Source of the DNA: Erysipelotrichaceae bacterium
Lineage (GTDB): Bacteria > Bacillota_I > Bacilli_A > RFN20 > CAG-826
Assembly (NCBI GenBank): GCA_015058945.1
Contig: SVBF01000018.1
Location: 62,001-126,000 of the forward strand
Direction of reading: 5' to 3'
DNA: 64,000 bases
Shown here: positions 14,754-45,914 of the stretch, one piece after another
Position numbering within the stretch: position 1 is the first letter of the stretch
Layout of the letters: each line of letters starts with the position of its first letter
Translations under genes and position numbers: made by a program
Notes under the pieces: model-generated
The model's input: only the letters and a program-made list of their open reading frames with translations
Databases searched by the model: none
Told to the model about the DNA's origin: nothing

Positions 14754-17700
14754 TTATTCGGCCGGATGAACCTTGAGTTCGCCGATCGCGTAGTCGGTTT
14801 TCTCCTCCTCGAAGAGGATGTCGTCCGACTTGTTGAAGACACGTCCAGCTTCGGTGCCGGTCGTGATGGACAAGTCAGGCGTGGTCGTACCTTCGGCGCA
14901 GCGAGCGATGAAGAAGCCATAAGGCGCGGAGATGGCGGTGTTGAAGCCACCGAGGGTACCGGTGAAGGTGACCTTGCTCCACGTGCCGGTGGTCTTCGTA
15001 TCGTCATCATAGACATAGGCGAAGAGGACGCAGTCGTCCTCGCCAGCCCAGGAAGGAAGGCCAGAGATCGTGTAGGTGAGGGTCTCAACGCCGGAGACAC
15101 TGAGATAGCCGCTAGACGAGACGCTGGTCGGGAGCCTACGGACGCCGAGGACGCCATGGTCCGTGCCTTCGGTGACGTCGAGGAAGACATCACCATTGGC
15201 GAGCAAGGTGGAGCTGATGACGGCACCCTCCTCGTCGATACGGTAATAGGTGACTTCCAAATCCGTTTCGGTGAAATTGAGTTTCATCTTGCGGCTCGAA
15301 GCGATGTTGAAGTATCTCGGTTGGCTATAGACGTAGTTGGACGCATTGAGAGTGACGGCCGGGGCTTCTAAAGCATAGCCATTGATGCCAGTGACCGTGG
15401 CGGTGACGCAGGAGAGGTAGTACTCCCCAGTCGTCGAATTGGCGCTGGTGTAGAGCCCATTGGCGAAGACAACAGATCGACCCTTCTCCATAGTTAACGA
15501 GTTGCCGTTGGTCCAAGAGCCACTGGAGATGAGCTCACCGAGCGAGTCATAAAGGAAGTAAGTGGTGTACGCGTAGTAGGAGTTCTCCAAGGAATCCGCG
15601 TCAGCGCCATAGGAACCGGAGAAGCTAAAGCGGTATTCTCCGGTGTAGCTCGGGGCGAATCTGGTGTACACGTAGTGGGAGAGACCCTCATACTTCGCCA
15701 TGACTTTGGTTTCGCCTACGCCGAGCTTAACGGCCCTCGCCGGTGTGTTGTTGACAATGGTTTCGGCCGTGAAGGTGTGGTTGATGTTGGTCACCTTCTT
15801 GATGACGCTCTCGAAGTTCAGGGCCACCACTCTGTCACCGCTCTCTTCGTGGACGCCGAAGGGATCATCCGCGTTGAGAAGCGGGTTCTCTTCGTCGCCA
15901 GAGGTGAGATTGAACCAGCCCGGGTTGTCCTTATAGAGCAACTTGGCGTAAATGGTGTCGACCGGTTCCAAGACAGCCGACGGCATGAAGGTTGCGCCGG
16001 TGAGTTCGGGGTCGAGCTCGAGCGGCGTCGTATCGTAATAACCTTCGGCGTATTCGATGCGGAGCGGATCGACCTGGTGGTAGGTCCAGGAAGTGGAGGA
16101 ATAGATGCGGAACACATAGAGACCGGTGTGGGTTTCGTCCTTCTCGTGAAGCGAGACGCGATAAGCGGAAGTGTACTCGCTGGTGGATTTGACGGAGTAG
16201 CTAGCCGTGTTGACCGAAATATAGGAACCCATAGAAGCTTCGCCGGTGAGTTCGTCGATGTTGATGTTATACGCATTGATGCCGGTGAGGGCGTTAGGCA
16301 GGAAGATGAAGTAATCGCCGGTTTTGGTCGCCTCAAACTCAACAAAGCGATAGCTGTTGTTTTTGTTGGAGTGGACCATGTTATCGCCAACGACGGCAAT
16401 CTCCCTCTCATCGAAGGTGGTGCCGTCTTGATGCTCGAGGCCATCGGCGATGAAGCCGACGCTGCTCCTGGCGACGGAGATCGAACCATAGGTAAGCAAG
16501 CGGTACTGGAAGGTCGAGACGCCCGTCTCGGGATCGAGATAGCGCGCCACGAGAACCCTGCCATCCTGGTCATTGAGATAGCTCATGTCATACGCGTCGA
16601 CGATGCCCGTGAGGTTCTCTTTGGCGAACTTGGTGATTTCGCCAGAAGCGTTGAAGAAGATGAAGTTGTTCTCATCCTCCATGCGGAAGACGTTTTCGTC
16701 GATGCGCATGGCCGAATCGGTGATGAAGGCTTCCGTGCCGGTGGTGAGATCGATGCGGAAGAACTTGCCGTTGCGAACGCCGATGACCTTGTTGTTCAGG
16801 ACTTCGCTGGCGTAGATTTGGTCGTATTTGAACGGGGCCTTGACCTTGCCGTCATAACCGACGAAGCCGAATTTGCCATCGAAGGTGCCGAGGAAGCCCT
16901 TGGCGAGAGGCACATTGGTCCTGGAGTTGAGATTGCCGAGGTCGGTGATGGGCTTGCCGTCCGCGTCGAAGATGATGTTGGCGGTCGGCGAGTAATAATG
17001 CTCATCGTCGAGTTGCACCAAGCCGATGCCCATGATGTCGTTGACCTTGTCGTGGAGGACGAGGTTGCCATCGAGGACGCGGGTGAAGAGATGACGGGCG
17101 GCGATGAGTTTGTCCGCGGGGATCTCATAGAAGGAAGCCGCGAAGTAAGTGAACATGCCTTCCGCATTGCGGATCGGGGTGCCGGCGCCGGTGAAGAGGA
17201 GACGGGTCTCGACATTGGTGCGGGAACCGGTCTCGAGGTCGAGCCAAGCAGTCTCAAGGCGATACTTGGTGCCGAGGTTCTCGGTTTCCGGATCATGATA
17301 GAAATTGGTGGTCGGGACAAAGTAGTCGTAATCGGTGGCGTCGATCGGGAGTTCGTAGTGCCTCTGGACGAGGACTTTGGTTCCGAAGCAGGCGATCATG
17401 CTCTCACCCTGGAGCAAGTTGTTCGCGCGGACGAAGGCGCCTTCCTTATAAAGGATATAGGTACCGCCGTTGGTGCGATAAAGCTCATAGCCTTCCTTGC
17501 CATAGTCGGTGAGGTCGATCTTGCTGCCGCCGAAGACCTCGCCGAATTCCGGGCCTTCGTATGCTTCGTCGGGAATGGCGTTGATCTTGGTGGCCTTGCC
17601 GTTAGCGGCATATTCGAAATGGACGCGATCCAAGCCACTGCCAAGCGAGAAATAGAACTTCTCGTTGATGACATAATACGAATAGGTCGAAGGATCCGGT

Positions 17701-18197
17701 TGGGCCTCCGCTTTGTCTAAGAGTTTGTTGCCAAACGCGTCGATAAGGTAATGGAACCCTTCATATTGAATGCGGAGGAAGTACGGGATGTGGCCGTTGT
17801 TGTTGTTGTAGACGGAATAGGAAAGCCAAGCGGGCTCGAATTGCGGCGCGATGAGGTAATCCCTATGGATCATCGAATAGAAGCCGATGAGGCCAGCGGC
17901 GTTCTGGCGGACCAATAGGCCGAGGTTCGCATAGCTGGTGTTGATGACGTCTTCGTCAATTTCAAGCGCCGCGTTGACGCTGACGACCGAAGCTTTGTTC
18001 GGTTCGATTTCCTCCGGTTCGAGGATGTTGGTCTCAATGACGCTGCCGTCAATGACGTCACTGCCCTCGGACGGGGCGGGAATAACCGAAGAGGCGCTGG
18101 AAGAGCTCTCCTCGGAGGATGAGGATGCGGGTTGTTCGCCGCAGGCTGCCAAAAGCATGCCGCAAGCGAAAACGAGCAAAAGGTGTCGTTTTTTCAT
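14754..18197 (-). CDS. Giant lipoprotein with WG-repeat-like and pre-peptidase-like domains
   Basis: The 1147-aa protein starts at the ATG at 18197, preceded by AAAGGGGG. It has a lipoprotein signal peptide with lipobox LAAC, then a Ser-rich linker typical of surface anchoring. Residues around 440-510 (GFVGYDGKVKAPFKYDQIY) look like WG/KWG beta-propeller repeats. Further on, segments such as FEATKTGDYFIFLP and FAPSYTGEYRFSFSG resemble bacterial pre-peptidase C-terminal jelly rolls. It is probably a cell-surface binding protein, and I see no catalytic motif. It stands alone with its own terminator, and the upstream PFK gene is separately terminated. The function is unknown. Confidence 0.85.
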   Translation of the reverse strand: MKKRHLLLVFACGMLLAACGEQPASSSSEESSSSASSVIPAPSEGSDVIDGSVIETNILEPEEIEPNKASVVSVNAALEIDEDVINTSYANLGLLVRQNAAGLIGFYSMIHRDYLIAPQFEPAWLSYSVYNNNNGHIPYFLRIQYEGFHYLIDAFGNKLLDKAEAQPDPSTYSYYVINEKFYFSLGSGLDRVHFEYAANGKATKINAIPDEAYEGPEFGEVFGGSKIDLTDYGKEGYELYRTNGGTYILYKEGAFVRANNLLQGESMIACFGTKVLVQRHYELPIDATDYDYFVPTTNFYHDPETENLGTKYRLETAWLDLETGSRTNVETRLLFTGAGTPIRNAEGMFTYFAASFYEIPADKLIAARHLFTRVLDGNLVLHDKVNDIMGIGLVQLDDEHYYSPTANIIFDADGKPITDLGNLNSRTNVPLAKGFLGTFDGKFGFVGYDGKVKAPFKYDQIYASEVLNNKVIGVRNGKFFRIDLTTGTEAFITDSAMRIDENVFRMEDENNFIFFNASGEITKFAKENLTGIVDAYDMSYLNDQDGRVLVARYLDPETGVSTFQYRLLTYGSISVARSSVGFIADGLEHQDGTTFDEREIAVVGDNMVHSNKNNSYRFVEFEATKTGDYFIFLPNALTGINAYNINIDELTGEASMGSYISVNTASYSVKSTSEYTSAYRVSLHEKDETHTGLYVFRIYSSTSWTYHQVDPLRIEYAEGYYDTTPLELDPELTGATFMPSAVLEPVDTIYAKLLYKDNPGWFNLTSGDEENPLLNADDPFGVHEESGDRVVALNFESVIKKVTNINHTFTAETIVNNTPARAVKLGVGETKVMAKYEGLSHYVYTRFAPSYTGEYRFSFSGSYGADADSLENSYYAYTTYFLYDSLGELISSGSWTNGNSLTMEKGRSVVFANGLYTSANSTTGEYYLSCVTATVTGINGYALEAPAVTLNASNYVYSQPRYFNIASSRKMKLNFTETDLEVTYYRIDEEGAVISSTLLANGDVFLDVTEGTDHGVLGVRRLPTSVSSSGYLSVSGVETLTYTISGLPSWAGEDDCVLFAYVYDDDTKTTGTWSKVTFTGTLGGFNTAISAPYGFFIARCAEGTTTPDLSITTGTEAGRVFNKSDDILFEEEKTDYAIGELKVHPAE

Positions 18198-18294
18198 TTT
18201 TACCCCCTTTAGGTTTGAACTAAGCATAGAAGGTTTTGCGCCGTGAGAAAAGGGGGTCGATTAATAAACATCTCGCGCCCCGCGTGAAAATAAA

Positions 18295-33067: not shown

Positions 33068-33113
33068 AGGCGTGCTCCTTGCTTTGATTATACATCATGC
33101 GTTTTTGCGGATT

Positions 33114-33119
33114 TATAAT
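33114..33119 (+). promoter_or_regulatory. -10 box of MFS gene, leaderless configuration
   Basis: TATAAT is followed by TATCGAT and the ATG at 33127, a 7-base gap. It lies within 50 bases of the divergent yhhN-like start, so the two promoters are back to back. Confidence 0.6.
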
Positions 33120-33126
33120 TATCGAT

Positions 33127-34524
33127 ATGAAAGATAAGACTCACTCCCTCGGGGCGAGGAGATGGACCGCCATCATCCTCATCGGGCTTTTCGGGCAGAT
33201 CGCCTGGGCCATCGAAAACAATTACATCAACCTTTGGGTCTATTCCCAATCCCATAACGCGAGCCACATCACTTGGATGACGATGGCTTCGGCGGTCGTG
33301 GCGACGCTGACGACCTTCTTTATCGGCGCTTTGTCCGACAAACTGGGCAAAAGGAAAATCTTCATCGCGCTTGGATATTCCATATGGGGCGTCACCGTCT
33401 TCCTCTTTGGCGTCATGTCCTTGGCCAATATGTCGGGCATGGCCGGAGGTGACCTCACCAAAGGCATCTTGCTCGTCGGCGTCATGAACGTCGTCGTGGA
33501 TTGCCTCATGACCTTCTTTGGCTCAAGCGCCAACGACGCCGCCTTCAACGCTTACGTCACCGACGAGACGAATGAACGAAATCGCCCCCTCGTCGAGTCC
33601 ATCCTTTCCGTCATGCCGTTGCTCTCGATGGCGTTGATGCTCGGGGTCGGCATCATCCTCGGAATCCCCGGAACCCAGGGGGATACGCCGAATGACGTTT
33701 GGGCCAATTCCGTCGCAAAACCCTGGTTGATTTTCTTTCTGATCTTCGGCGTCGCCACCACATTGGTCGGCGTCGCGTCGTTCTTTTTGCTGCCGAAAGA
33801 CCATATCGAGCCAAACCGCGACGACGCTTATTTCAAACACATGGTCAAAGGCTTCTTCCCCAAGACCGTCAAGGCCAATCCCCTTCTTTACATTGCCCTG
33901 CTCGGCTTCATGCTCTTCAACATCGGCGTCGATTCGTTCATGCCCTACATCATGGTCTATATGCAAAACCTCCCCTTCATGGGCAATAACGGCATGGACT
34001 TCATGCTCGCCCTAGGCATCATCTTCGGCGTGGCGACGCTGCTCGTCTTGCTCATCGGCGCCTTCCTTAACCGCATCGGCAAAATGAAGGTTCTGATCCC
34101 CGCGGTCGTCATGATGTTCCTCGGCGCATTAGGTTTATTCCTCTTCGATTCCGCTTTCGCCGGCAGCGTCATCGCGGGCATCTTCCTCATCGGTGGCTAC
34201 CTCATCGGCACCGCTTCCTTAGGCGCGGAGATCCGCGACCTCACCCCCGAAAACGACGTCGGGGCGTTCCAGTCGGTCCGCATGGTCTTCGTCGTCATGA
34301 TCCCGATGATCGTCGGCAGCAATATCTCCCTGTTTGCCTTCCAGACCCCCGAAGTCCTCGATCCCTCCACCGGGGCCGTGCAAAAATCCCCGGACAAATG
34401 GATGTTCGTCGTCACGATGGTCGCCTGCGCCTTGACCATTGTCCCCATCGTTTGGCTGCTCATCGCCAAAAAGAAGAAAAACGTCCTCGCCGAAGTGGAA
34501 TCCACCCAAGACAAGGTAGAGTAG
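33127..34524 (+). CDS. MFS transporter (GPH/SLC45-like)
   Basis: The 465-aa protein has about twelve membrane helices, with the MFS loop GALSDKLGKRKIF between helices 2 and 3 and the family-like start WTAIILIGLFGQIAWAIENN. This N-terminal pattern resembles sugar/cation symporters of the GPH or SLC45 type. The substrate is unknown and no sugar genes are adjacent. The ATG at 33127 is preferred over an upstream one at 33097 because of the promoter position. The next gene begins 60 bases later. Confidence 0.85.
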   Translation: MKDKTHSLGARRWTAIILIGLFGQIAWAIENNYINLWVYSQSHNASHITWMTMASAVVATLTTFFIGALSDKLGKRKIFIALGYSIWGVTVFLFGVMSLANMSGMAGGDLTKGILLVGVMNVVVDCLMTFFGSSANDAAFNAYVTDETNERNRPLVESILSVMPLLSMALMLGVGIILGIPGTQGDTPNDVWANSVAKPWLIFFLIFGVATTLVGVASFFLLPKDHIEPNRDDAYFKHMVKGFFPKTVKANPLLYIALLGFMLFNIGVDSFMPYIMVYMQNLPFMGNNGMDFMLALGIIFGVATLLVLLIGAFLNRIGKMKVLIPAVVMMFLGALGLFLFDSAFAGSVIAGIFLIGGYLIGTASLGAEIRDLTPENDVGAFQSVRMVFVVMIPMIVGSNISLFAFQTPEVLDPSTGAVQKSPDKWMFVVTMVACALTIVPIVWLLIAKKKKNVLAEVESTQDKVE

Positions 34525-34584: not shown

Positions 34585-35049
34585 ATGAACAATCGCAAAG
34601 TAAACATTGTGCTCGGCATCCTCGTGTCCGTGCTCGCCATCGTCTCCGTCTTCATTCTCTTCGCCACGGCCTTCGGCAAATCCGATTATTCGGATCACCC
34701 CTCGACCCTCGGCAGCTGCTTCAACGTCATGTTCGGCAATCAGGGCTTCGAACCCGTCCCCGGACTCATCGTCGCCTTCGTGCTCCAGTGCGTCGCCATC
34801 CTCTTTGCCCTCATCGGGACCATCCTCCCCGGCAAGATCGGCGGGCTCTCCCTCGGCATCGCCGCGGCCAGCATGGTCGGCGGCGGCATCCTCTGGCTCC
34901 TCGCCCCCTCGATGTTCAGCTCCATCAACCCGATCGCCGCCCAAGCCGAGACCGTCACCCACGGCACCGGCACCATCCTCACCGCGGTCATCTGCTTCCT
35001 CGGCGGATTGCTCGGCCTCTATGGCGGCTACCGCGCGATCAAGGAATAA
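34585..35049 (+). CDS. Small integral membrane protein, unknown
   Basis: A 154-aa protein with four predicted membrane helices (IVLGILVSVLAIVSVFILFA, LIVAFVLQCVAILFALIG, a Gly-rich third, and LTAVICFLGGLLGLYGGY). No conserved motif is recognised. A TATATT lies in the gap after the MFS gene, so it may be separately transcribed. A weak CAGG is the only ribosome-binding candidate. A terminator follows. Confidence 0.7.
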   Translation: MNNRKVNIVLGILVSVLAIVSVFILFATAFGKSDYSDHPSTLGSCFNVMFGNQGFEPVPGLIVAFVLQCVAILFALIGTILPGKIGGLSLGIAAASMVGGGILWLLAPSMFSSINPIAAQAETVTHGTGTILTAVICFLGGLLGLYGGYRAIKE

Positions 35050-36752: not shown

Positions 36753-37676
36753 ATGTCAGCGATCATCGGAAAAGCATTCTATTGGCCAACCGTCTTACTC
36801 GCCGGGGTCATCGCCGGCGGCACCACCGGTTTCGAAGTGGTTCAGATGTTCAAGCCAACCGCCACCGAGTTCATCGTTTCCGGGGACGGATACCTCCCCG
36901 ACGTCGATGCGGCGTTCGCCAAATACGAGGAAGCCAAAGGCAGCGGGAACTTCGCCTCCGCCCTCACCGCGGACGAGATGATCAACGTCGCCTACCGCCT
37001 CTTCTCCCTCGAGGAGGAGACCTGGTCGCAAGGCGTCGGCGCCTCCATCGCCGCCGGCTTCGTGAATCAGGGCATCCAAAGCATGACGGTGCACTCGGGC
37101 GAACGTTACTTCGAGGAATCCAACTCCTTCTCCTCGATCATCCAGATCTACGACCGGATGTTCCAAGAGGGGGACACCACGACGACCTATTGGGGCGGCG
37201 ACACCAATTACGCGAGCCACCCCAAAAAGGAGTACCCCAACGACGAGTACAAGAAACTCATGGGGCGCTACGTCAGCGAAGGCCTCGTCTACATCGTCTC
37301 CCCCAAGACCCTGATCCTCGACGCGGACACCCCGTCGGGAAAACCGGCCTCCGGCATCACCGAGACACCGGACGGCTACGTCATCGAGGCGGAACTCGAC
37401 AAACGCTATGGCGTCATCAACTACCAATGCCAGATGCAGACGATCTCCGACCTCAAATACAAACCGCAGTTCCAGTTCTGCCATATCACCGTGACGGTCG
37501 ATAAGCAGCTGAACCTGCAACGGATGGTCACCTTCGAGCATTACACCGCCGTCACCTCGCAAGGGGTCGGCTCCGATGCCGAAGGCTCCCTCGTGACCGT
37601 CTACCACCACGAACCCGCCCCGTTTGGCTTCCCTGAAGTCGGCGGCACCGTGGCCCCCTATCCCGAATCCCTATAA
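36753..37676 (+). CDS. Membrane-anchored extracellular protein, unknown
   Basis: The 307-aa protein has an N-terminal membrane helix (WPTVLLAGVIAGGTTGFEVV) and a soluble region, presumably outside, with alternating beta-type segments (YGVINYQCQMQTISDLKY, CHITVTVDKQLNLQRMV). No family is recognised. It starts at an ATG with AAAGGAGG upstream and is followed after 12 bases by the 1253-aa surface protein, so it is the first gene of a two-gene operon. A partner role for the giant protein is inferred from context only. Confidence 0.75.
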   Translation: MSAIIGKAFYWPTVLLAGVIAGGTTGFEVVQMFKPTATEFIVSGDGYLPDVDAAFAKYEEAKGSGNFASALTADEMINVAYRLFSLEEETWSQGVGASIAAGFVNQGIQSMTVHSGERYFEESNSFSSIIQIYDRMFQEGDTTTTYWGGDTNYASHPKKEYPNDEYKKLMGRYVSEGLVYIVSPKTLILDADTPSGKPASGITETPDGYVIEAELDKRYGVINYQCQMQTISDLKYKPQFQFCHITVTVDKQLNLQRMVTFEHYTAVTSQGVGSDAEGSLVTVYHHEPAPFGFPEVGGTVAPYPESL

Positions 37677-37688
37677 GGAGGAATGACC

Positions 37689-40600
37689 ATGAGCTTCATT
37701 CAACACTTATTGACGAAAAAAGTCGCGACCGTAGGACTCTTCTTCTCCGTCTTCGGCGTGACCGCCGGCACCGCCTTCTTCGTCGTGCCCCAAACCGTCA
37801 TCGTCGAGCGTGAACGCGCGATGCCGATCGACCCGGGCGTCGAAGTCGAATTGACCGGTAAGGAACGCTTCATCGGCAACTTGGCCTCAAGCGCCGCGAG
37901 CGGTCTATCCATCAACCTCGACCAACTGACCTTCACCCTCGATGGCAAGGAAGAGACGATCGTCGACGAATTCGATAACAGCGTCACCAAGACCCACAAG
38001 AACGTGATCGACGCCAGTGGCGCCACCCTCGATTTCGCGATGTCCTCGCTTTCGCTCCATGGCGTCAACTTCGCCCTCACCGCCCCCATCACTTATAGTG
38101 ACGGCGGTTTGCGTCCGCATAAGCGCGGCGTGCACGCTTCGATGATCGACGGAACGATCTATTTGAATCTCTTTGACCGCGACGAGGCGGACTCCTGGGA
38201 CTTCAAATACCGCGTCGACGTCGCCGCCAAGGACATGACCGACGATAACGGCAACCCCATCATCGACCCCACCACCGGCGGTGTCCGTCAGTACGAATAC
38301 GGCGACCTCGACTTCCTCATCGAAGATGTTTTCGAGATCCTAAGCGAAGGTGGGCTCAACCTCTCCCTCCAAGGCTGGGTCGAAAAGCTCACCGGCGGCA
38401 ACGCCGAGGAAAGTGAGGAACCCGCCGCTTCCTCCGGCTTAAACACCGACGCCATCATGGATTCGATGTCCGACATGGTCGAGACCTATGAAGGCAACCC
38501 CTACTTCATCTGGAAGCTTCCCTTAGGCGAGAAAGTCATCGAACTCGGCATGCGCTCGGACGAGAACTACCTCTTCACCGGCGTTGACCTCCCCGCTCTC
38601 TATGACTTTGATAAGGAAGAGACCGAAGACGGCGTCGTCTATACCCCTAAGGCCAACGACGACGAAGAATGGGTCATCCAGGAAGGCATGAGCCTCGTGG
38701 CCCACGCCTCGATCCAGGATTTTGGCATCGCCCGCGGCGAATGGAGCACCACCCTCGTCCCCGGCGACGCGGCCAATTATAAGGATTTAACCAATTCGCG
38801 TTACATGCTCGAATCGATCGCCCGTTATGTCGCTAACCCCCAGTTCGGCCTCGACATGACCCTCGACCTCGGCTATGAGACCGCAGCCAAAGAAGGCGAC
38901 CGCACCCACCTCGCCAAGGAAGCCGCCTCGGATTCGCTCCGCATCGCCCTTTCCGCCGACGCGGACTTAAGCGAGCGCAAATTCCACGGCATCCAAGGCC
39001 AGCTCTCGCTTCAGAAGATGGACGAAGAGACCATCAAGGCCCGTCACGACGTGAACGTCGCCTATCTCTATGATCAGACCAACAAGGAAGGCGATGGCTA
39101 CCTCGACATCAACGGCGACCTCTTCAAGGCCCACACCACCAAGACCTACCTCGACGAGTTCTACGCCGAGGTCCTTAAGGACGCCTTCTCCTCTTCTTCC
39201 GATAACCAAAGCGACGCCAACACCCTCAACCAAATCCGCGCCGTCTTGAACAAGATCGACCTCTCCATCGACGCGATCCTCGATTCGGATCTCCTTAACG
39301 ACATCCATAACGGCGTCTACCTCGCCGCGCTCGACGTCATCGAGTCCATCGAGACCACCCAAGTCCGCGACGAAGACGATAAGCCCACCGGCGAATCCGC
39401 CCTTCGCGTCACCCTCACCCTCGCCCCGATCGGCTTGCAGGGCAAGGTCGTCCTGTTGCTTCGCGGCACTTCCAATAAAGCGGACCTCCTCAACCTCACG
39501 TTTGAGAACATCCACTTCGCCTCCTTCACCCTCAATGGTCGCATCAATACCCGCGCCTTCGAACCTTTGAAGGCCAAAGCGGACTATGAGGGCTACCAAG
39601 ACCTCGCCCACCTCAAAGGCATCGGCGAGCAAATCACCGACATCGTCGACGAGAAGGCCTTCTCCGCCTCTCTCGGCGTCACCTTGACCTCTGGCGAGGA
39701 GACCGACATCGCTTTGGACGGCGACATCGCCTTCGCCTTCGAAGAAGGGCTAAAAGCCGGCAAAATCGGCCTCGATTTGGAGCAGAACCTCACCGACAAG
39801 ATCGTGAGCAACCACCGCGTCGGCATCGATATGCGCGACTCCTTCCAGACCGTCGCCATGGCTTATGGCTCGGGTAGCGCCCCGCTAGCATCCATGCCAG
39901 AAGAAGCCTTAAGCGCCAAGCTCAACCTCGGCGCCTTCTCCGACACCTTTGACGCGCTACTCGACCGCTTTGGCGCCCTCGACGATCGCTTTGGCAGGCT
40001 CACCGCCTCCCTCACCAAGGAAGCCGGCACTTCGCTCCTCTCCCGTTTGGCCAAGGGCGAATATAGCGCGCTCCTTGAAAAGACCGACCTCATCTCGAGT
40101 GCCGTCCTCCACGACGAAAACGGCGACACCGTGATCACCGTGAACAAAGCCGCCCTCGGCCTGGAGAAAGACCTCGTCGTCACCCTCCATTACCTCGCTG
40201 GCGAAGAAGGTGGCATCTCCTCCCTTGGCATCGACCTTGGGTTCTCCGGCAAAGACCTGAGCATCCGCCTTGGCGACATCGCCCCCGTCGCGATCCATGA
40301 GACCGACGGCTCCCTTAAGGAAAACGCGGGCAAAGCCTTCGAGAACTTCACCGCGAACGAAGTCGAATCCTATAACGACATCAGCTTCGTCTCCGAGTTG
40401 CTCGAATACACCGTCGGTACCTTCACTCTAGGCACCACCGCCGATGAGAATGGTAACGTCAGCGGCATCTCCCATTACGGCCTAGCCGGCGACCTCTCGG
40501 TCAACCTCGGGCCCCATAACCTCACCTTGGGCCTATTCGACGCCTACGCTTCCGTCGAAGGCGCAGAGACCAAAGTCTACGCCTCCTTGGAAGGCCTACC

Positions 40601-41450
40601 CGTCATCCGTGGCGTCAACGGCCCCGATTCGAGCGTCTATTTCCGTCCCAACGAGGCGGAAGGCGTCCGCAATTCGGAAATCTATTATTACGCCAACGGC
40701 ATCGACCCCAAGGGCGAAGCCTTGCTCACCCGCGATTCCTCTTATGGTAAAGTGCGCAACGTGCGTGACGCGGTGCGCCTCGACGGCGAGGACTTCACCG
40801 GCGACTTGCTCGGCTGGCTCGGCCGTTATAGCCTTGGCATCCTCGACGGCATCCTCGATAAGGACGAAACCCCCGCTCCGACCCCGAACCAGAACGGCCG
40901 CAAGATGCGCGCCGGCATCCTCGGCGACGAACCGCTTCGCATCGAGACCGTCGTCAACGGCTTCACCAAGAGCGCGAGCGAAGACGCCTACACCCTCTCG
41001 GTCGACCTTGGCAAGTTGCTTGGCATCGCGATCCTTGGCAACGCCGAGATCACGCTTACCGGCCGCACGCTCGTCAACGGTGGCAACACCTTCAAGACCC
41101 TCACCGGCATCAACGTCCACGCCGACGCCTCCGCCAAAGCCGCCAATACCGGCAAGGCGTTGCGCCTCGTCTCCGTCGACGTCGACCTCTATCTCAACAA
41201 CATCGTCAAGAACATCGATGGCGATTATGAGATGAAGGATGTCTGGGGCGAAGGCTTCGATACCGCCGCCTATGCGAACAAGTTCATTTCCGCCGTCGCC
41301 GATAGCGGTGAGATCACCGGCAAAGGTCTCCTCTATGACCTCGCCGATGGCTTCTCTAACCCCGACGGCAAGCCCACCAAGCTCTACGGCTATGACTATC
41401 GTCTCGCCGAGAACGTCAAACCCGCGAACCTCTACCTCGGGTTGAACTAA
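37689..41450 (+). CDS. Giant anchored surface protein A (1253 aa), unknown
   Basis: The N-terminus has a single membrane anchor (ATVGLFFSVFGVTAGTAFFV), then more than 1,100 residues of repeated beta-strand/helix units, presumably extracellular. No lipobox, sorting signal or enzyme motif is seen. It is distantly paralogous along its length to the lipoprotein at 42306-45914. Shared positions include EYGDLDFLI, WKLPLGEK, RLAKGEYSALLEK near residue 780, and GIDPKGEALLTRD near 1010. I chose the ATG at 37689, not 37683, because AAGGAGG ends seven bases before it. The function is unknown. A lipid- or polymer-binding scaffold is conceivable but unproven. Confidence 0.8.
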   Translation: MSFIQHLLTKKVATVGLFFSVFGVTAGTAFFVVPQTVIVERERAMPIDPGVEVELTGKERFIGNLASSAASGLSINLDQLTFTLDGKEETIVDEFDNSVTKTHKNVIDASGATLDFAMSSLSLHGVNFALTAPITYSDGGLRPHKRGVHASMIDGTIYLNLFDRDEADSWDFKYRVDVAAKDMTDDNGNPIIDPTTGGVRQYEYGDLDFLIEDVFEILSEGGLNLSLQGWVEKLTGGNAEESEEPAASSGLNTDAIMDSMSDMVETYEGNPYFIWKLPLGEKVIELGMRSDENYLFTGVDLPALYDFDKEETEDGVVYTPKANDDEEWVIQEGMSLVAHASIQDFGIARGEWSTTLVPGDAANYKDLTNSRYMLESIARYVANPQFGLDMTLDLGYETAAKEGDRTHLAKEAASDSLRIALSADADLSERKFHGIQGQLSLQKMDEETIKARHDVNVAYLYDQTNKEGDGYLDINGDLFKAHTTKTYLDEFYAEVLKDAFSSSSDNQSDANTLNQIRAVLNKIDLSIDAILDSDLLNDIHNGVYLAALDVIESIETTQVRDEDDKPTGESALRVTLTLAPIGLQGKVVLLLRGTSNKADLLNLTFENIHFASFTLNGRINTRAFEPLKAKADYEGYQDLAHLKGIGEQITDIVDEKAFSASLGVTLTSGEETDIALDGDIAFAFEEGLKAGKIGLDLEQNLTDKIVSNHRVGIDMRDSFQTVAMAYGSGSAPLASMPEEALSAKLNLGAFSDTFDALLDRFGALDDRFGRLTASLTKEAGTSLLSRLAKGEYSALLEKTDLISSAVLHDENGDTVITVNKAALGLEKDLVVTLHYLAGEEGGISSLGIDLGFSGKDLSIRLGDIAPVAIHETDGSLKENAGKAFENFTANEVESYNDISFVSELLEYTVGTFTLGTTADENGNVSGISHYGLAGDLSVNLGPHNLTLGLFDAYASVEGAETKVYASLEGLPVIRGVNGPDSSVYFRPNEAEGVRNSEIYYYANGIDPKGEALLTRDSSYGKVRNVRDAVRLDGEDFTGDLLGWLGRYSLGILDGILDKDETPAPTPNQNGRKMRAGILGDEPLRIETVVNGFTKSASEDAYTLSVDLGKLLGIAILGNAEITLTGRTLVNGGNTFKTLTGINVHADASAKAANTGKALRLVSVDVDLYLNNIVKNIDGDYEMKDVWGEGFDTAAYANKFISAVADSGEITGKGLLYDLADGFSNPDGKPTKLYGYDYRLAENVKPANLYLGLN

Positions 41451-41458
41451 GTCGCGAT

Positions 41459-41493
41459 AATGCCCTTAACGAATCGGTTAGGGGCATTTTCTT
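41459..41493 (+). terminator. Intrinsic terminator of the surface operon
   Basis: AATGCCC-TTAAC pairs with GGTTA-GGGGCATT, followed by TTCTTTT. The stem begins eight bases after the stop of the giant protein A gene. Confidence 0.75.
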
Positions 41494-41516
41494 TTGCCTC
41501 ATTTCCTAGGTGGACA

Positions 41517-41522
41517 TAAAAT
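41517..41522 (+). promoter_or_regulatory. -10 box of Xre regulator gene, leaderless configuration
   Basis: TAAAAT is followed by eight bases and the ATG at 41531. No Shine-Dalgarno is present. Confidence 0.55.
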
Positions 41523-41530
41523 AGACATAC

Positions 41531-42181
41531 ATGGAAAACCTCGCAGAAATCGTTGGAAAGAACCTCGCTTCTTTGCGTAAGGCCAAAGGCCTGACACAGC
41601 AAGATCTCGCCCGTGAAATCAATTATTCGGACAAATCCATCTCCAAATGGGAGCTCGGTTATTCTTTGCCTAGCGTCGATATCCTGAAGGATTTCGCGCA
41701 GTTCTATGGCGTGAGCATCGATTACCTCGTCGTCGAGCAAAAGCAAGAAGACCTCGAGGCGGTCGCGGCAAATACCGATTTTGACGCCGACTTACGCGCC
41801 AAGCGCGTCAACCAGGCGCTCGTCATCGCCCTCACCGCAACCTTCGTCTTCCTCGTCGCATTAAGCGTGTATCTCGCCTCATTGCTTCGCGGCGATCCCA
41901 GTTCGAATAAATTCACGTCCTTGTTCTTCTGGATGGTGCCCGTATCGATCTTTCTCATCGCTTGGGAGAGCTGGCGTTATTACCATAGTCGGCTCCTCCA
42001 CATCATCCTCCTTTCCGCCTTCGCATGGACCTTGCTTCTTTGCTTCTCCTTCCACTTCCAGTTCTATAAAGATCCGCCGGAGAGCATTTGGTACATCCTC
42101 ATCGTCGGCATACCCATTCAGGTAATCCTCATCCTTTGGGGCAATTTCAAGCCGCGCATCAAGAAAAAAGCGCAAAAATAA
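41531..42181 (+). CDS. Xre-type regulator with four membrane helices
   Basis: Residues 8-62 form a Cro/C1-type helix-turn-helix (LASLRKAKGLTQQDLAREIN, then SDKSISKWELGYSLPSVDIL). After a linker there are four predicted membrane helices between about 98 and 210 (ALVIALTATFVFLVALSVYL, FFWMVPVSIFLIAW, LLHIILLSAFAWTLLLCF, WYILIVGIPIQVILILW), and the end is basic. Such membrane-tethered Xre proteins may bind DNA while sensing the envelope. Its position between two paralogous giant surface-protein genes suggests it controls them, an inference only. It has its own promoter and terminator. Confidence 0.85.
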   Translation: MENLAEIVGKNLASLRKAKGLTQQDLAREINYSDKSISKWELGYSLPSVDILKDFAQFYGVSIDYLVVEQKQEDLEAVAANTDFDADLRAKRVNQALVIALTATFVFLVALSVYLASLLRGDPSSNKFTSLFFWMVPVSIFLIAWESWRYYHSRLLHIILLSAFAWTLLLCFSFHFQFYKDPPESIWYILIVGIPIQVILILWGNFKPRIKKKAQK

Positions 42182-42189
42182 ACCAAGCG

Positions 42190-42218
42190 AAAACCACGGC
42201 ACGTCCCCCGTGGTTTTT
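42190..42218 (+). terminator. Intrinsic terminator of the Xre regulator gene
   Basis: AAAACCACGG pairs with CCGTGGTTTT around a short C-rich loop, followed by TTTCATTTTC. Confidence 0.8.
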
Positions 42219-42283
42219 CATTTTCTCCGATTCGTAGACATTGTTTCCCCAAAGTGGAAACAAGCGAATCGTACCCTCGCACG

Positions 42284-42289
42284 TATAAT
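42284..42289 (+). promoter_or_regulatory. -10 box of giant lipoprotein B gene
   Basis: TATAAT ends 16 bases before the ATG at 42306. The expected leader is about ten bases, with no Shine-Dalgarno except a weak GGGAAA. The in-frame ATG inside TATAATG lies upstream of any likely transcription start and cannot be the start codon. Confidence 0.5.
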
Positions 42290-42305
42290 GCCCGCGGGAA
42301 ATTTC

Positions 42306-45300
42306 ATGGGACCCTTCGAACAGAGAAAAAACCGCACCCCTCGCTTCGCGATGACCCTCGGTCTCGCGACGGTTTTGCTTTTCTCTTGCGGGAACCCTGG
42401 CGAACAAAGCGCGATCTCCGAAAACATAGAAACCCCGAATGAAATCGCCACCCCGATGAAGGCGCAGGTGCTTGAGGGCTTCTCTAACGGCTTGAAGTTA
42501 GAGTTCGACGCCTTGAAGCTGCTCATTCCCGCCAACGGCTCCCGTGGTGAAAACCTGATCGACCTTTCCTCCTCGTCGGGGCAAATCCGTCTGGAGTCCC
42601 CGTCGCTCCATGGCCTTTTTGTCGGGCTCGACGCCCCGGTCTCCTATAACGGACTCGACCGCGAACTCGCCCTTACTTTAGCGGGGGACGACGTTTATTT
42701 CTCCGTCTCCTCCGAGCGTGACGACGCGGCGAATTATGACCTCAAATACCATTCTTCCATCGCCACCAAAGACGTCGGCGGGGAAGACGCGGTGACCAAA
42801 GGTATCTCCTATTACGAGTACGGTGATCTCGACTATGTCATCGCCGAGATCCTCGACATCCTCGGCGTCGATTCCCTTTCGCTCAACCTCGATAAGGGCA
42901 TCGGCCTCACTTTTGATTGGGACGCCATCAACGACTCCATCGACGCGATCAGCGAATATGACGCCACGAGATTCCTTTGGGAATTACCTTTGGGCGATAA
43001 AACCTTCCCCATCGGTTTAGGCCACGATGATTCTGGCGTGCTTTCGACCATCGAGTTCCCGTTGCAGGTGAACCAAGGCGATTATGCCGTCCTTAATGAT
43101 GACTTCCACCTATGCCTCAAGGCCAAAATCGCGGAAGATGCCCCACTTTCCTGGGCGCCGAAATATCCCACTGACGAATACGTCGACATCGTCGATTCGC
43201 TTTCCTTGTTCCGCCAAATCGCCAAGCTCACGCAGCGTAAGGCTTTCGGCGTGACCGCCGACTTCAACCTGAGCCACACCGAAGACGAGATCCTCGGCGA
43301 CGAGGACCATTTCGCGACCCCCGCGGTCGACGAATCGGCCTACTTAAGGCTCGCCGCCAACGCCGACTTAAGCCGTGATTTCCTCAGCGGGCTTAACGCG
43401 GACATCATTCTTGGCCAGCTCGGCAAGAACGAGAAGCGCATCGGCTTCCATTCGAAGTTGGATGAGGCAGAAAGCGACGCGAGGCTCTTCCTCAACGTCA
43501 ACGACATCCTCAAAGTCCGTACGACCAGCGACGTCGTCAGCGCGCTTTTCTCTTCGCTTCTTGATTCGCTAAAAGACGACTCCATCCAAAACGACATGAT
43601 CATGAAGTTGCTCTCGTCCTTACTCGCGACCGCCAACGGCATCTTCGAGGCCATCAATGCCGTCAAAGAATCCGCTTTCTATGAAAACATCGACAAAAAG
43701 CACTTCGAATCCATCTTGTCCACGATCGTCGATCTGCAAGTCCACGATAACTCCATTTCCATCACGGTCGATCTTTCCGGCGCTTCGTTGATCGGCACGG
43801 CCACGGTCCTTCTTAACGGCACCAGCGACGACATGTCCCTAGGCAGAATCACCTTGGATAACGTCGGCCTCAAATCCACCAACGACTCCCACACCTGTTT
43901 CACCATCGACGGCTATCTCACCATCGATCCTTACCAGGATGTCGCATTCAGCGAGGATGGCTATGTCGAGATGACCCACCTTCCCCACTGGACCGATGAG
44001 ATCAACGCCATCGCCGAGCGCGACCAGCTCTCCGCCCAAATCGATGGATATGCCTTAAAACAAGGCACCACCTCCCGCATCACCTCCGCGACGGCCAATC
44101 AGTACGTCTATGACCCCGTCGCCAAGCGCGGACGCACCGAGCAAGGCATGGCCTTCCATGGCTCCCTCGCCTTTGACTTGCAGCAGCGTCTAGGCACCGG
44201 GGCGATGACCTTCCTCGACCTCAAGGAAGATTACGTCAACGACCATAACCTCAAGATCGACGTCACCGGCGAAGAAGGCGAGAACGACACCGAGGAGAAA
44301 GACATGGTCGGCAGCGGCAACGAGAACGCCATGTATTTCGAATACAATTCCCGCAACGTCACCGCCGCTAGCGGTTCCTCCACCTATAAGTCCGAAAACC
44401 GTTCCGAACCTTCCAGGAATCCCTTGAAGGGACGTTTCTCCATCCATTCTTTGAATGGTTTGCTCGGCGTCATCCTGGAACTCACCGAATCCAACGACCC
44501 GAAGTTCGAGCGTCTCACCAACCTCGTCTCGGGCATCATGGCGGAGACGCTGCTCACCAAATTGCTCAAGGGGCAATACTTTGAATTGCTTTCCTCGAAG
44601 ATCCTCACCTCGGTGACGCTTAACGCCGACTCCTCCACTTTCGTGATCGCCCCGGGTATCATCCAGCAAAACACCGGACTCACGTTAAAGGCCGGCTATG
44701 GAGAGGATGGCATGCCTAGGACCATCGAAATCTGGCTGACCCTCGAAGGAGAGGAAAACGACACGGAAGTCTACGCGAAAATCACCCTCGGAGACACCTC
44801 TTTCGACTCCTTCCCCTATCAGTTTGATAACCACGATAACGCCAACTTCGTGGACTACTCTTCCTTGAAGACGTTGCTCGGATATGGCATCGACACCATC
44901 TCTCTGGGCAACACCGATAAGGATAAGACCACCACTTATCATATCGGTGGCACCGTCACGCTGGAAATCCGCCTCGGCAGCGAATGGACCGTCAAGGATG
45001 TTCAGATCGCCCTCGACATCTATTTCATCCTCCATGGCACGAGCCTAAAGATCCTCGGCAGTATCTTCACGCCGAAGACGACGGCGCTTTTGGGGATGGT
45101 CAAGGTCATTCCAGAAAACTGCTATAGCACTTTCTTCTACGAAACCGACGGCATCGATAAAGAGGGTTCGCTTTACCTGACCCGTTATGTGGGCCCCTCC
45201 AACCGCATCAATTCCTGGCGCGACGACGTCGAGGTGAGCCATTGCAAAGTCAAAGGCTCGGATTTCCTAAGCAACGCGGTCGATTGGCTAGCCAAATACA

Positions 45301-45914
45301 TGCTGAACCTCGGCTCCATCGTCACCGATAACCTCGATAAGGCGACCTCCACCGCCGGCCAGGCTTTCCATGGCGAGGACATCGTCGAGAGCATCTCCGT
45401 CTCCAACCCCTCGCTGTCCGCGCCTTCTTGGAACCTAAGCATCGGCTTAGGCGCTTTGGCCCATACCAATCTCCTCGGCTCGCTCACGGCGACCATTTCG
45501 GGCAAGAAAGTCACCCACGAAGACGAAAACGGGAAGCAATACTCCTACAACACGCTTTATTCCATCACCGGCGGCACGACGATCTCCATCCTTGTCCTCA
45601 ACATCGTCGCCACCATCAACCTTTCCATCAAAAACGTCTCCACCGGCGTCTACAAAAACGCTTGGACCGACACTTCCGCGACCGTCTATTCCGGTGACAT
45701 GAAGAACGAACCGGACGAAAAATCCAAAATCGAATGGCACGGCATCATCCCATCCGTCGTCAAATACTACGAAGACCATTACTACTGGATGGGCGTGCCC
45801 GTCACCGGAACGCCAGAGCAGATTTGGAACGGTAGCCGCGGCAAAAACGACGGCAACGCCAATTACCAAAGCGCGCAGTGGTATACCAAGCCGGGCGTCG
45901 TCGCGACGGCTTAA
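42306..45914 (+). CDS. Giant surface lipoprotein B (1202 aa), paralogue of protein A
   Basis: The N-terminal MGPFEQRKNRTPRFAMTLGL, then ATVLLFSCGN, has a lipoprotein-like signal with an imperfect lipobox (LFSC), so it is probably lipid-anchored outside. The rest is a long beta/helix-repeat region homologous to giant protein A in order: YEYGDLDYVI near 180, LWELPLGDK near 220, LAANADLSRDFLSGLNADI, LTKLLKGQYFELLSS near 755, and GIDKEGSLYLTRY near 950. It lacks A's membrane helix. Its stop overlaps that of the convergent ruvX. The function is unknown. The different anchoring of the two paralogues suggests a pair working in the same envelope layer. Confidence 0.8.
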   Translation: MGPFEQRKNRTPRFAMTLGLATVLLFSCGNPGEQSAISENIETPNEIATPMKAQVLEGFSNGLKLEFDALKLLIPANGSRGENLIDLSSSSGQIRLESPSLHGLFVGLDAPVSYNGLDRELALTLAGDDVYFSVSSERDDAANYDLKYHSSIATKDVGGEDAVTKGISYYEYGDLDYVIAEILDILGVDSLSLNLDKGIGLTFDWDAINDSIDAISEYDATRFLWELPLGDKTFPIGLGHDDSGVLSTIEFPLQVNQGDYAVLNDDFHLCLKAKIAEDAPLSWAPKYPTDEYVDIVDSLSLFRQIAKLTQRKAFGVTADFNLSHTEDEILGDEDHFATPAVDESAYLRLAANADLSRDFLSGLNADIILGQLGKNEKRIGFHSKLDEAESDARLFLNVNDILKVRTTSDVVSALFSSLLDSLKDDSIQNDMIMKLLSSLLATANGIFEAINAVKESAFYENIDKKHFESILSTIVDLQVHDNSISITVDLSGASLIGTATVLLNGTSDDMSLGRITLDNVGLKSTNDSHTCFTIDGYLTIDPYQDVAFSEDGYVEMTHLPHWTDEINAIAERDQLSAQIDGYALKQGTTSRITSATANQYVYDPVAKRGRTEQGMAFHGSLAFDLQQRLGTGAMTFLDLKEDYVNDHNLKIDVTGEEGENDTEEKDMVGSGNENAMYFEYNSRNVTAASGSSTYKSENRSEPSRNPLKGRFSIHSLNGLLGVILELTESNDPKFERLTNLVSGIMAETLLTKLLKGQYFELLSSKILTSVTLNADSSTFVIAPGIIQQNTGLTLKAGYGEDGMPRTIEIWLTLEGEENDTEVYAKITLGDTSFDSFPYQFDNHDNANFVDYSSLKTLLGYGIDTISLGNTDKDKTTTYHIGGTVTLEIRLGSEWTVKDVQIALDIYFILHGTSLKILGSIFTPKTTALLGMVKVIPENCYSTFFYETDGIDKEGSLYLTRYVGPSNRINSWRDDVEVSHCKVKGSDFLSNAVDWLAKYMLNLGSIVTDNLDKATSTAGQAFHGEDIVESISVSNPSLSAPSWNLSIGLGALAHTNLLGSLTATISGKKVTHEDENGKQYSYNTLYSITGGTTISILVLNIVATINLSIKNVSTGVYKNAWTDTSATVYSGDMKNEPDEKSKIEWHGIIPSVVKYYEDHYYWMGVPVTGTPEQIWNGSRGKNDGNANYQSAQWYTKPGVVATA

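Follow-up and report, generated by a model that had tools for sequence, protein, structure and literature searches.

Lipid carriers of the LolA, LppX and LprG families have a hydrophobic half-barrel that accommodates lipids or lipoproteins. They are single soluble or lipid-anchored domains, their fold is known from double-membraned or mycolate-bearing cells, and LppX and LprG serve export. RseB, whose fold is LolA-like, acts through an anti-sigma factor. In mycobacteria, LprG and the MFS transporter Rv1410 are involved in triacylglyceride transport, as stated in one paper (PMC10576003). Another (PMC10023570) describes Mycoplasma P116 as a previously unseen fold with one huge hydrophobic cavity in the homodimer. 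The locus analysed in this study recurs across an order of Bacilli as a unit of a LolA-like protein, a giant protein and a divergently encoded Xre regulator with four predicted membrane helices. It was found in a 64,000-nucleotide stretch of DNA (the window) from an Erysipelotrichaceae genome of 1.46 Mb (92% complete), whose genus we take to be a member of the GTDB order RFN20. Most of the related named records are MAGs from rumen and gut, including Candidatus Alloenteromonas pullicola and pullistercoris. In the window the unit has a second giant, and the four ORFs, for the 307-aa protein, giant A, Xre and giant B, were all located where the first-pass annotation had placed them (Table 1).

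Table 1. Genes, predicted modules and operator-like sites of the unit, in window coordinates.
Feature	Position	Strand	Basis or remark
O1, 17-bp palindromic operator-like site, TTCTCCGAATCGGAGAA	36642..36658		94 bp ahead of the 307-aa ORF; one of the window's two best sites
307-aa membrane-anchored protein, predicted LolA/LppX/LprG fold	36753..37676	+	One N-terminal membrane helix, then carrier domain
Predicted beta-taco carrier domain of the 307-aa protein, residues 67-298	36951..37646	+	LppX Z 10.7, LprG Z 10.2
Giant A, 1255 aa (1253 from the second ATG), N-terminal membrane anchor	37683..41450	+	Homology to B; tree
Xre (HTH_3) regulator, 216 aa, four predicted membrane helices	41531..42181	+	HTH_3 match; hydrophobic stretches
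O2, operator-like site before giant B, TTCTCCGATTCGTAGAC	42223..42239		Palindrome search
Giant B, 1202 aa, lipoprotein	42306..45914	+	Lipobox LLFSC
Giant B module 1, LolA-like	42450..43172	+	LolA 6f3z Z 9.7, 156 residues, rmsd 3.7
Giant B module 2	43176..43946	+	Weak match to S. aureus 4egd (Z 7.1); repeat of module 3, probability 95.9
Giant B module 3	43968..44831	+	Sequence repeat of module 2, E 5e-9; no solved-fold match alone
Giant B module 4, conserved, C-terminal	44853..45686	+	P. gingivalis LolA3 Z 8.0, RseB Z 7.8; porins equal, Z 8-9

Neither the 307-aa protein nor A or B matches a Pfam or NCBIfam family at its cut-off, and no description of any of the three was found in the literature searched. 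As far as these sources reach, the system is undescribed, as had been proposed, and no known family explains its proteins, although sequence models may overlook remote members of the LolA/LppX/LprG superfamily. Pfam searches with 22 and 31 relatives of the envelope proteins gave scattered single weak matches (the best to DUF4251, E 0.0017, in one of 31), and a PDB sequence search with the envelope proteins returned nothing except weak matches to beta-amylase and S100, which were read as chance. The earlier statement that no domain is recognisable thus stands for sequence searches but not for structure, where a fold of the LolA/LppX type appears in the model of the 307-aa protein. This AlphaFold2 model (20 sequences; pLDDT 87.5, pTM 0.81) has the architecture of the solved family members, with an N-terminal helix, a half-barrel of about 11 strands and lid helices. 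The first Foldseek match was LprG of M. tuberculosis (5.6e-5), at TM-scores of 0.3-0.4 that denote a distant likeness. VIA-align, in whose lists the lack of a family does not exclude it, placed the model nearest to LppX (Z 10.7, 169 residues, rmsd 4.1), LprG (10.2), LprF (9.2) and LolA (9.1); the best nine rows (Z 9.0-10.7, 161-179 residues) all belong to the LolA/LppX/LprG superfamily or its ependymin-like kin. A membrane-anchored lipid-carrier fold of this type is thus well supported for the predicted structure, and lipid binding, which the first-pass annotation had named as a possible role, would fit it. The window's own genome also encodes another relative of the 307-aa protein, of the lipoprotein type (L142, G000:C12:8220-8828; a 336-aa frame, profile E 4.6e-15), which has no Pfam match, and another locus contains a second relative of 410 aa about 4 kb downstream of its unit (L078:11138-12370, E 2e-27).

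The model of the mature part of B (1175 aa, 32 sequences) is of lower confidence (pLDDT 77.7, pTM 0.58) and arranges strands and helices in four blocks. Blocks 2 and 3 are repeats of each other in sequence, which was also seen when B was compared with itself. B looks like four LolA-like modules in series, the first being clear in the model, the second and fourth weaker, and the third assigned through the second. Since Z-scores of 7-8 can occur without kinship, this arrangement is itself a model that is firm for block 1 only. Foldseek matches of the whole giant to TbpB, LptD and ApoB had TM-scores below 0.2 and were set aside as beta-rich resemblance, and profile comparison found no sequence homology between the 307-aa family and the giants. 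All four module profiles of B match giant A, which was among the rows used to build them.

A and B are paralogues, as the first-pass annotation had recognised, and BLASTP aligns most of the two sequences (E 6e-51, 23% over 1122 columns). In a tree of 72 giants, calculated by a quick method under LG+G4, the first copies of the genus (A, SH-aLRT 100) and the second copies (B, 99) form two branches, within which the contig-cut single copies of the genus were placed; a record of the same family (L186) falls into the A branch. The two separate branches indicate that the duplication is about as old as the genus. The anchors have followed different courses. A keeps its membrane helix, whereas a lipobox occurs in 17 of 22 B copies (13 found by pattern, four by eye) and the other five (L067-L071) have a signal peptide only, with no lipobox cysteine. 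Hence the differing anchors noted earlier are real in the window, with a helix in A and the lipobox in B, but do not extend to a general design. A 1156/1157-aa lipoprotein encoded at 14754-18227 (-) of the window, which has no Pfam match, was also considered as a third giant and was rejected as unrelated to A and B.

The gene neighbourhood is conserved in relatives. B-like giants occur in 26 of the 31 genomes of the genus, which excludes chance for the observation, and were detected in 17/146 genomes of the family by single-sequence search and in 39/395 of the class by profile. The 307-aa family is broader, with matches, weak and paralogue-like ones included, in 179 of 279 genomes and 28 of 56 genera of the order. 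Sixty further loci were taken from the 307-profile hits from rank 31 down and were thus chosen independently of the giant. In 57 of them the 307-aa gene is directly followed by a giant in the same orientation; two of the remaining three end at contig ends (L198, L234), and L191, from a near-complete single-contig genome (G128), has the 307-aa protein and truly lacks an adjoining giant. In 44 of the 60, the adjoining upstream gene is divergently oriented and encodes an Xre protein of the same family. These two frequencies define the basic unit as Xre, the 307-aa protein and one giant. The functional unit proposed by the first-pass annotation therefore recurs and does include the regulator, but its core is three genes, and the second giant is a duplication of the age of the genus. 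The surroundings within the genus also show some regularity. In many loci an MFS transporter gene (window 33097-34524, +) lies upstream of the unit, with CarD-like and HypB/CobW-like genes between, and a 154-aa hydrophobic protein without a Pfam match (window 34585-35049, +) has similar-looking counterparts in the same place. Of 23 genus loci, eight (L051, L055, L058, L062, L067, L069, L070, L071) have a gene for a patatin-like phospholipase (Pfam E 2e-32 for the one scanned) adjoining the unit, mostly before oligoendopeptidase F, and none was found at the corresponding place in the window.

In family f27, the carrier domain and the giant are one protein of 2,145-2,636 aa in all four loci read. 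It starts with a membrane helix and a domain of the 307-aa type (E 8e-18 to 8e-22), continues with long repeats that are spaced about 180 columns apart in self-comparison, and carries module 4 towards its end (E 8e-25 to 1e-31). That the parts follow one another as the genes do in the window's unit is strong evidence that they work together. It also bears on the idea that the giants are structural or adhesive surface scaffolds, with beta-rich modules that attach to polymers or to the host surface and resemble LolA incidentally. Such proteins would be large, surface-located and fast-diverging, and identity to B among the genus's A and B copies is indeed only 21-52%. However, no adhesin family was matched, weak carbohydrate-binding or cadherin-like hits are single and scattered over the members, and the strongly conserved partner, fused to the giant in f27, has a predicted lipid-carrier fold. 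A scaffold role is thus highly improbable.

Shared control of the genes is suggested by the two operator-like sites. O1 is a perfect 17-bp palindrome and O2 a copy that deviates from the consensus at one position. With up to three mismatches, the 16-base pattern occurs nine times in the window against 2.17 expected, and four of these matches are O1 and O2 read on both strands. Of 23 loci of the genus, 20 contain the palindrome with up to four mismatches in the 200 bp that precede the 307-aa gene, compared to 3% of random 200-bp pieces, and it precedes A in only 1/19 and Xre in only 1/20 loci; since the consensus was drawn up after inspection of the window, of L051 and of a few further loci, the counts are partly circular for those. 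Before B, the palindrome is present in all nine loci with Xre between A and B (including L055, and with L061 counted as B) and in none of 13 where B directly follows A. The same control of B thus seems to be kept, either within the operon or through a promoter of its own. Co-regulation of the 307-A operon and B through the shared palindrome is well supported by this distribution of sites. The protein that binds it would be Xre, which has a clear HTH_3 domain (Pfam, 59.9 bits against a cut-off of 23, E 2.4e-16). In other genera, the half-site ACTCTC/GAGAGT recurs in 40 of 57 divergent intergenic regions, with 3.0 expected from base shuffles that do not preserve dinucleotides. It was not found upstream of the window's four genes, where the longer palindrome suits the genus. 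Arrays of this half-site in divergent Xre-307 regions such as those of L167, L180 and L236 have the appearance of a variant operator.

A regulator in the membrane also invites the reading that the unit is an envelope sensor, in which the LolA-like proteins detect mislocalised lipoproteins or lipids in the manner of RseB and signal to Xre. RseB is among the structural matches of both the 307-aa protein (Z 8.2) and module 4 of B, and the divergent position of the regulator in most of the further loci would suit such a circuit. As read from its sequence, however, Xre consists of the DNA-binding domain and four hydrophobic stretches, with almost no outside domain to receive a signal. Moreover, a sensor would hardly seem to require fused carriers of more than 2,000 aa, and the shared palindrome suggests that the genes are targets of control and not only sources of a signal. 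We therefore regard a sensory role as quite improbable.

The host genomes offer a context for the predicted lipid carriers. A search for PBP transpeptidase was negative for all 31 genomes of the genus and positive for 30 of 279 in the order, among them some members with the unit or the 307-aa family (for instance G035, G086 and G103). FtsW/RodA is absent from the window's genome and seven others of 11 tested, and present in three f27 genomes. The absence of wall markers in the genus agrees with a prediction, made in PMC10868615, that two RFN20 families are peptidoglycan-deficient. A bridge spanning the cell wall had been our first idea and was dropped as these markers proved absent; bridging as suggested by the first-pass annotation is thus unlikely here, at least across a wall.

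Fatty acid synthesis appears reduced as well. No FabF-type ketoacyl synthase was detected in the window's genome, and full-length enzymes (E < 1e-50) were found in five of the 279 genomes of the order, all of them outside the 179 that have the 307-aa family (Fisher p 0.006, ancestry ignored). At any strength, matches were obtained in 17/279 genomes, and those in five genomes with this family (G042, G104, G242, G265, G173) are weak, partial or split. In the class, at E 1e-20, a ketoacyl synthase was matched in 3 of the 39 genomes with a giant and in 117 of the 356 without one (Fisher p 7e-4, ancestry again ignored), the former three matches being frames of 800-817 aa; 239 giant-negative genomes also lack it. 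Since the loss is nearly order-wide and clustered by ancestry, its association with the unit is weak evidence. Ketoacyl synthase matches in such unusual 800-817-aa frames, compared to 410 aa for FabF, were seen in the f27 genomes G465, G553, G610 and G351. DegV-family proteins, which we take to be FakB fatty-acid binders, were found in all 22 genomes tested, with three copies in the window's genome. The scarcity of ketoacyl synthases and the presence of these proteins suggest that the hosts live on outside fatty acids. Judged from gene content, the window's host is apparently both wall-less and dependent on such a supply.

Alternatively, the same proteins might work in the reverse direction and carry lipids or lipoproteins made by the cell to the outside or from one membrane site to another. 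The closest folds, LppX and LprG, belong to export, and the MFS gene upstream of many genus loci recalls the partner of LprG. This gene is, however, separated from the unit by others and was not seen to adjoin it in the loci read from other genera. Nor was there any trace of an outer membrane that could receive the lipids (Omp85 in 0/11 genomes, with 7/14 control genomes positive), and the lack of the FabF-type enzyme argues for import as the need. Export thus appears unlikely.

Taken together, the carrier fold, giants with like modules, their fusion, the shared control and hosts that apparently need lipids and lack a wall point to lipid acquisition at the cell surface. That the unit is a co-regulated, outward-facing system for handling and acquiring lipids in wall-less, fatty-acid-auxotrophic Bacilli is a reading to which we give about even weight for and against. 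The lipid cargo, the uptake direction and the hand-over between the proteins are what we infer from this combination. A and B would be long surface proteins, anchored by a helix in A and by a lipid in B, whose roughly four similar cup- or groove-shaped modules in a row pick hydrophobic cargo such as fatty acids, acylglycerols, phospholipids or sterols from the gut contents. They might hand it on to the 307-aa protein, a membrane-tethered carrier of the LolA/LppX/LprG kind, and this in turn to the cell's own membrane, so that FakB-type proteins inside could use the fatty acids delivered. A dedicated importer gene is not among the members of the unit. The membrane-seated Xre may sense the lipid state of the membrane and switch the 307-A operon and B together via the 17-bp palindrome. 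Going further, the serial modules might form a continuous hydrophobic path along which lipids of food particles, of the host or of adjacent cells reach the membrane, and might with a lipid-sensing Xre switch represent a new class of lipid-acquisition machine; this extension is tentative and rather doubtful. The fused f27 giants have many shorter repeats instead of the roughly four modules of the window's giants. These considerations bear on how gut and rumen bacteria without a detected wall or fatty-acid elongation enzyme obtain their membrane lipids. If the proposed role is true, a concrete, testable set of proteins with their regulator and DNA site would be at hand for this supply, and the LolA/LppX fold would have found a further use, in serial copies, at the surface of bacteria with a single membrane.

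Among known systems, the AsmA-like proteins TamB and YhdP and the eukaryotic RBG bridges resemble the giants in their N-terminal anchor and their long, repetitive, beta-rich hydrophobic path, which is a putative feature here. The giants differ in that no TamB or AsmA-like family is listed among the Pfam matches of 31 of them, in that the 11 genomes searched for Omp85 contain no partner of the TamA type, and in that there is no second membrane to bridge. By the same search, these genomes show no sign of the outer membrane to which the Lol pathway sorts lipoproteins. RseB likewise links a LolA-like fold to regulation, but the regulator here is an Xre protein with four membrane helices. To the LolA, LppX and LprG carriers themselves the likeness lies in the predicted folds of the 307-aa protein and of module 1 of B. 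Here, however, one carrier is tethered by a helix and the others would be strung in series within proteins of 946-2,636 aa, and no Pfam sequence match connects them. A functional precedent with another fold is P116 of Mycoplasma, for which the capture of outside lipids by wall-less, lipid-dependent cells is proposed in PMC10023570; in place of its single large cavity, the unit would combine modules like LolA with a carrier partner and a regulator of its own.
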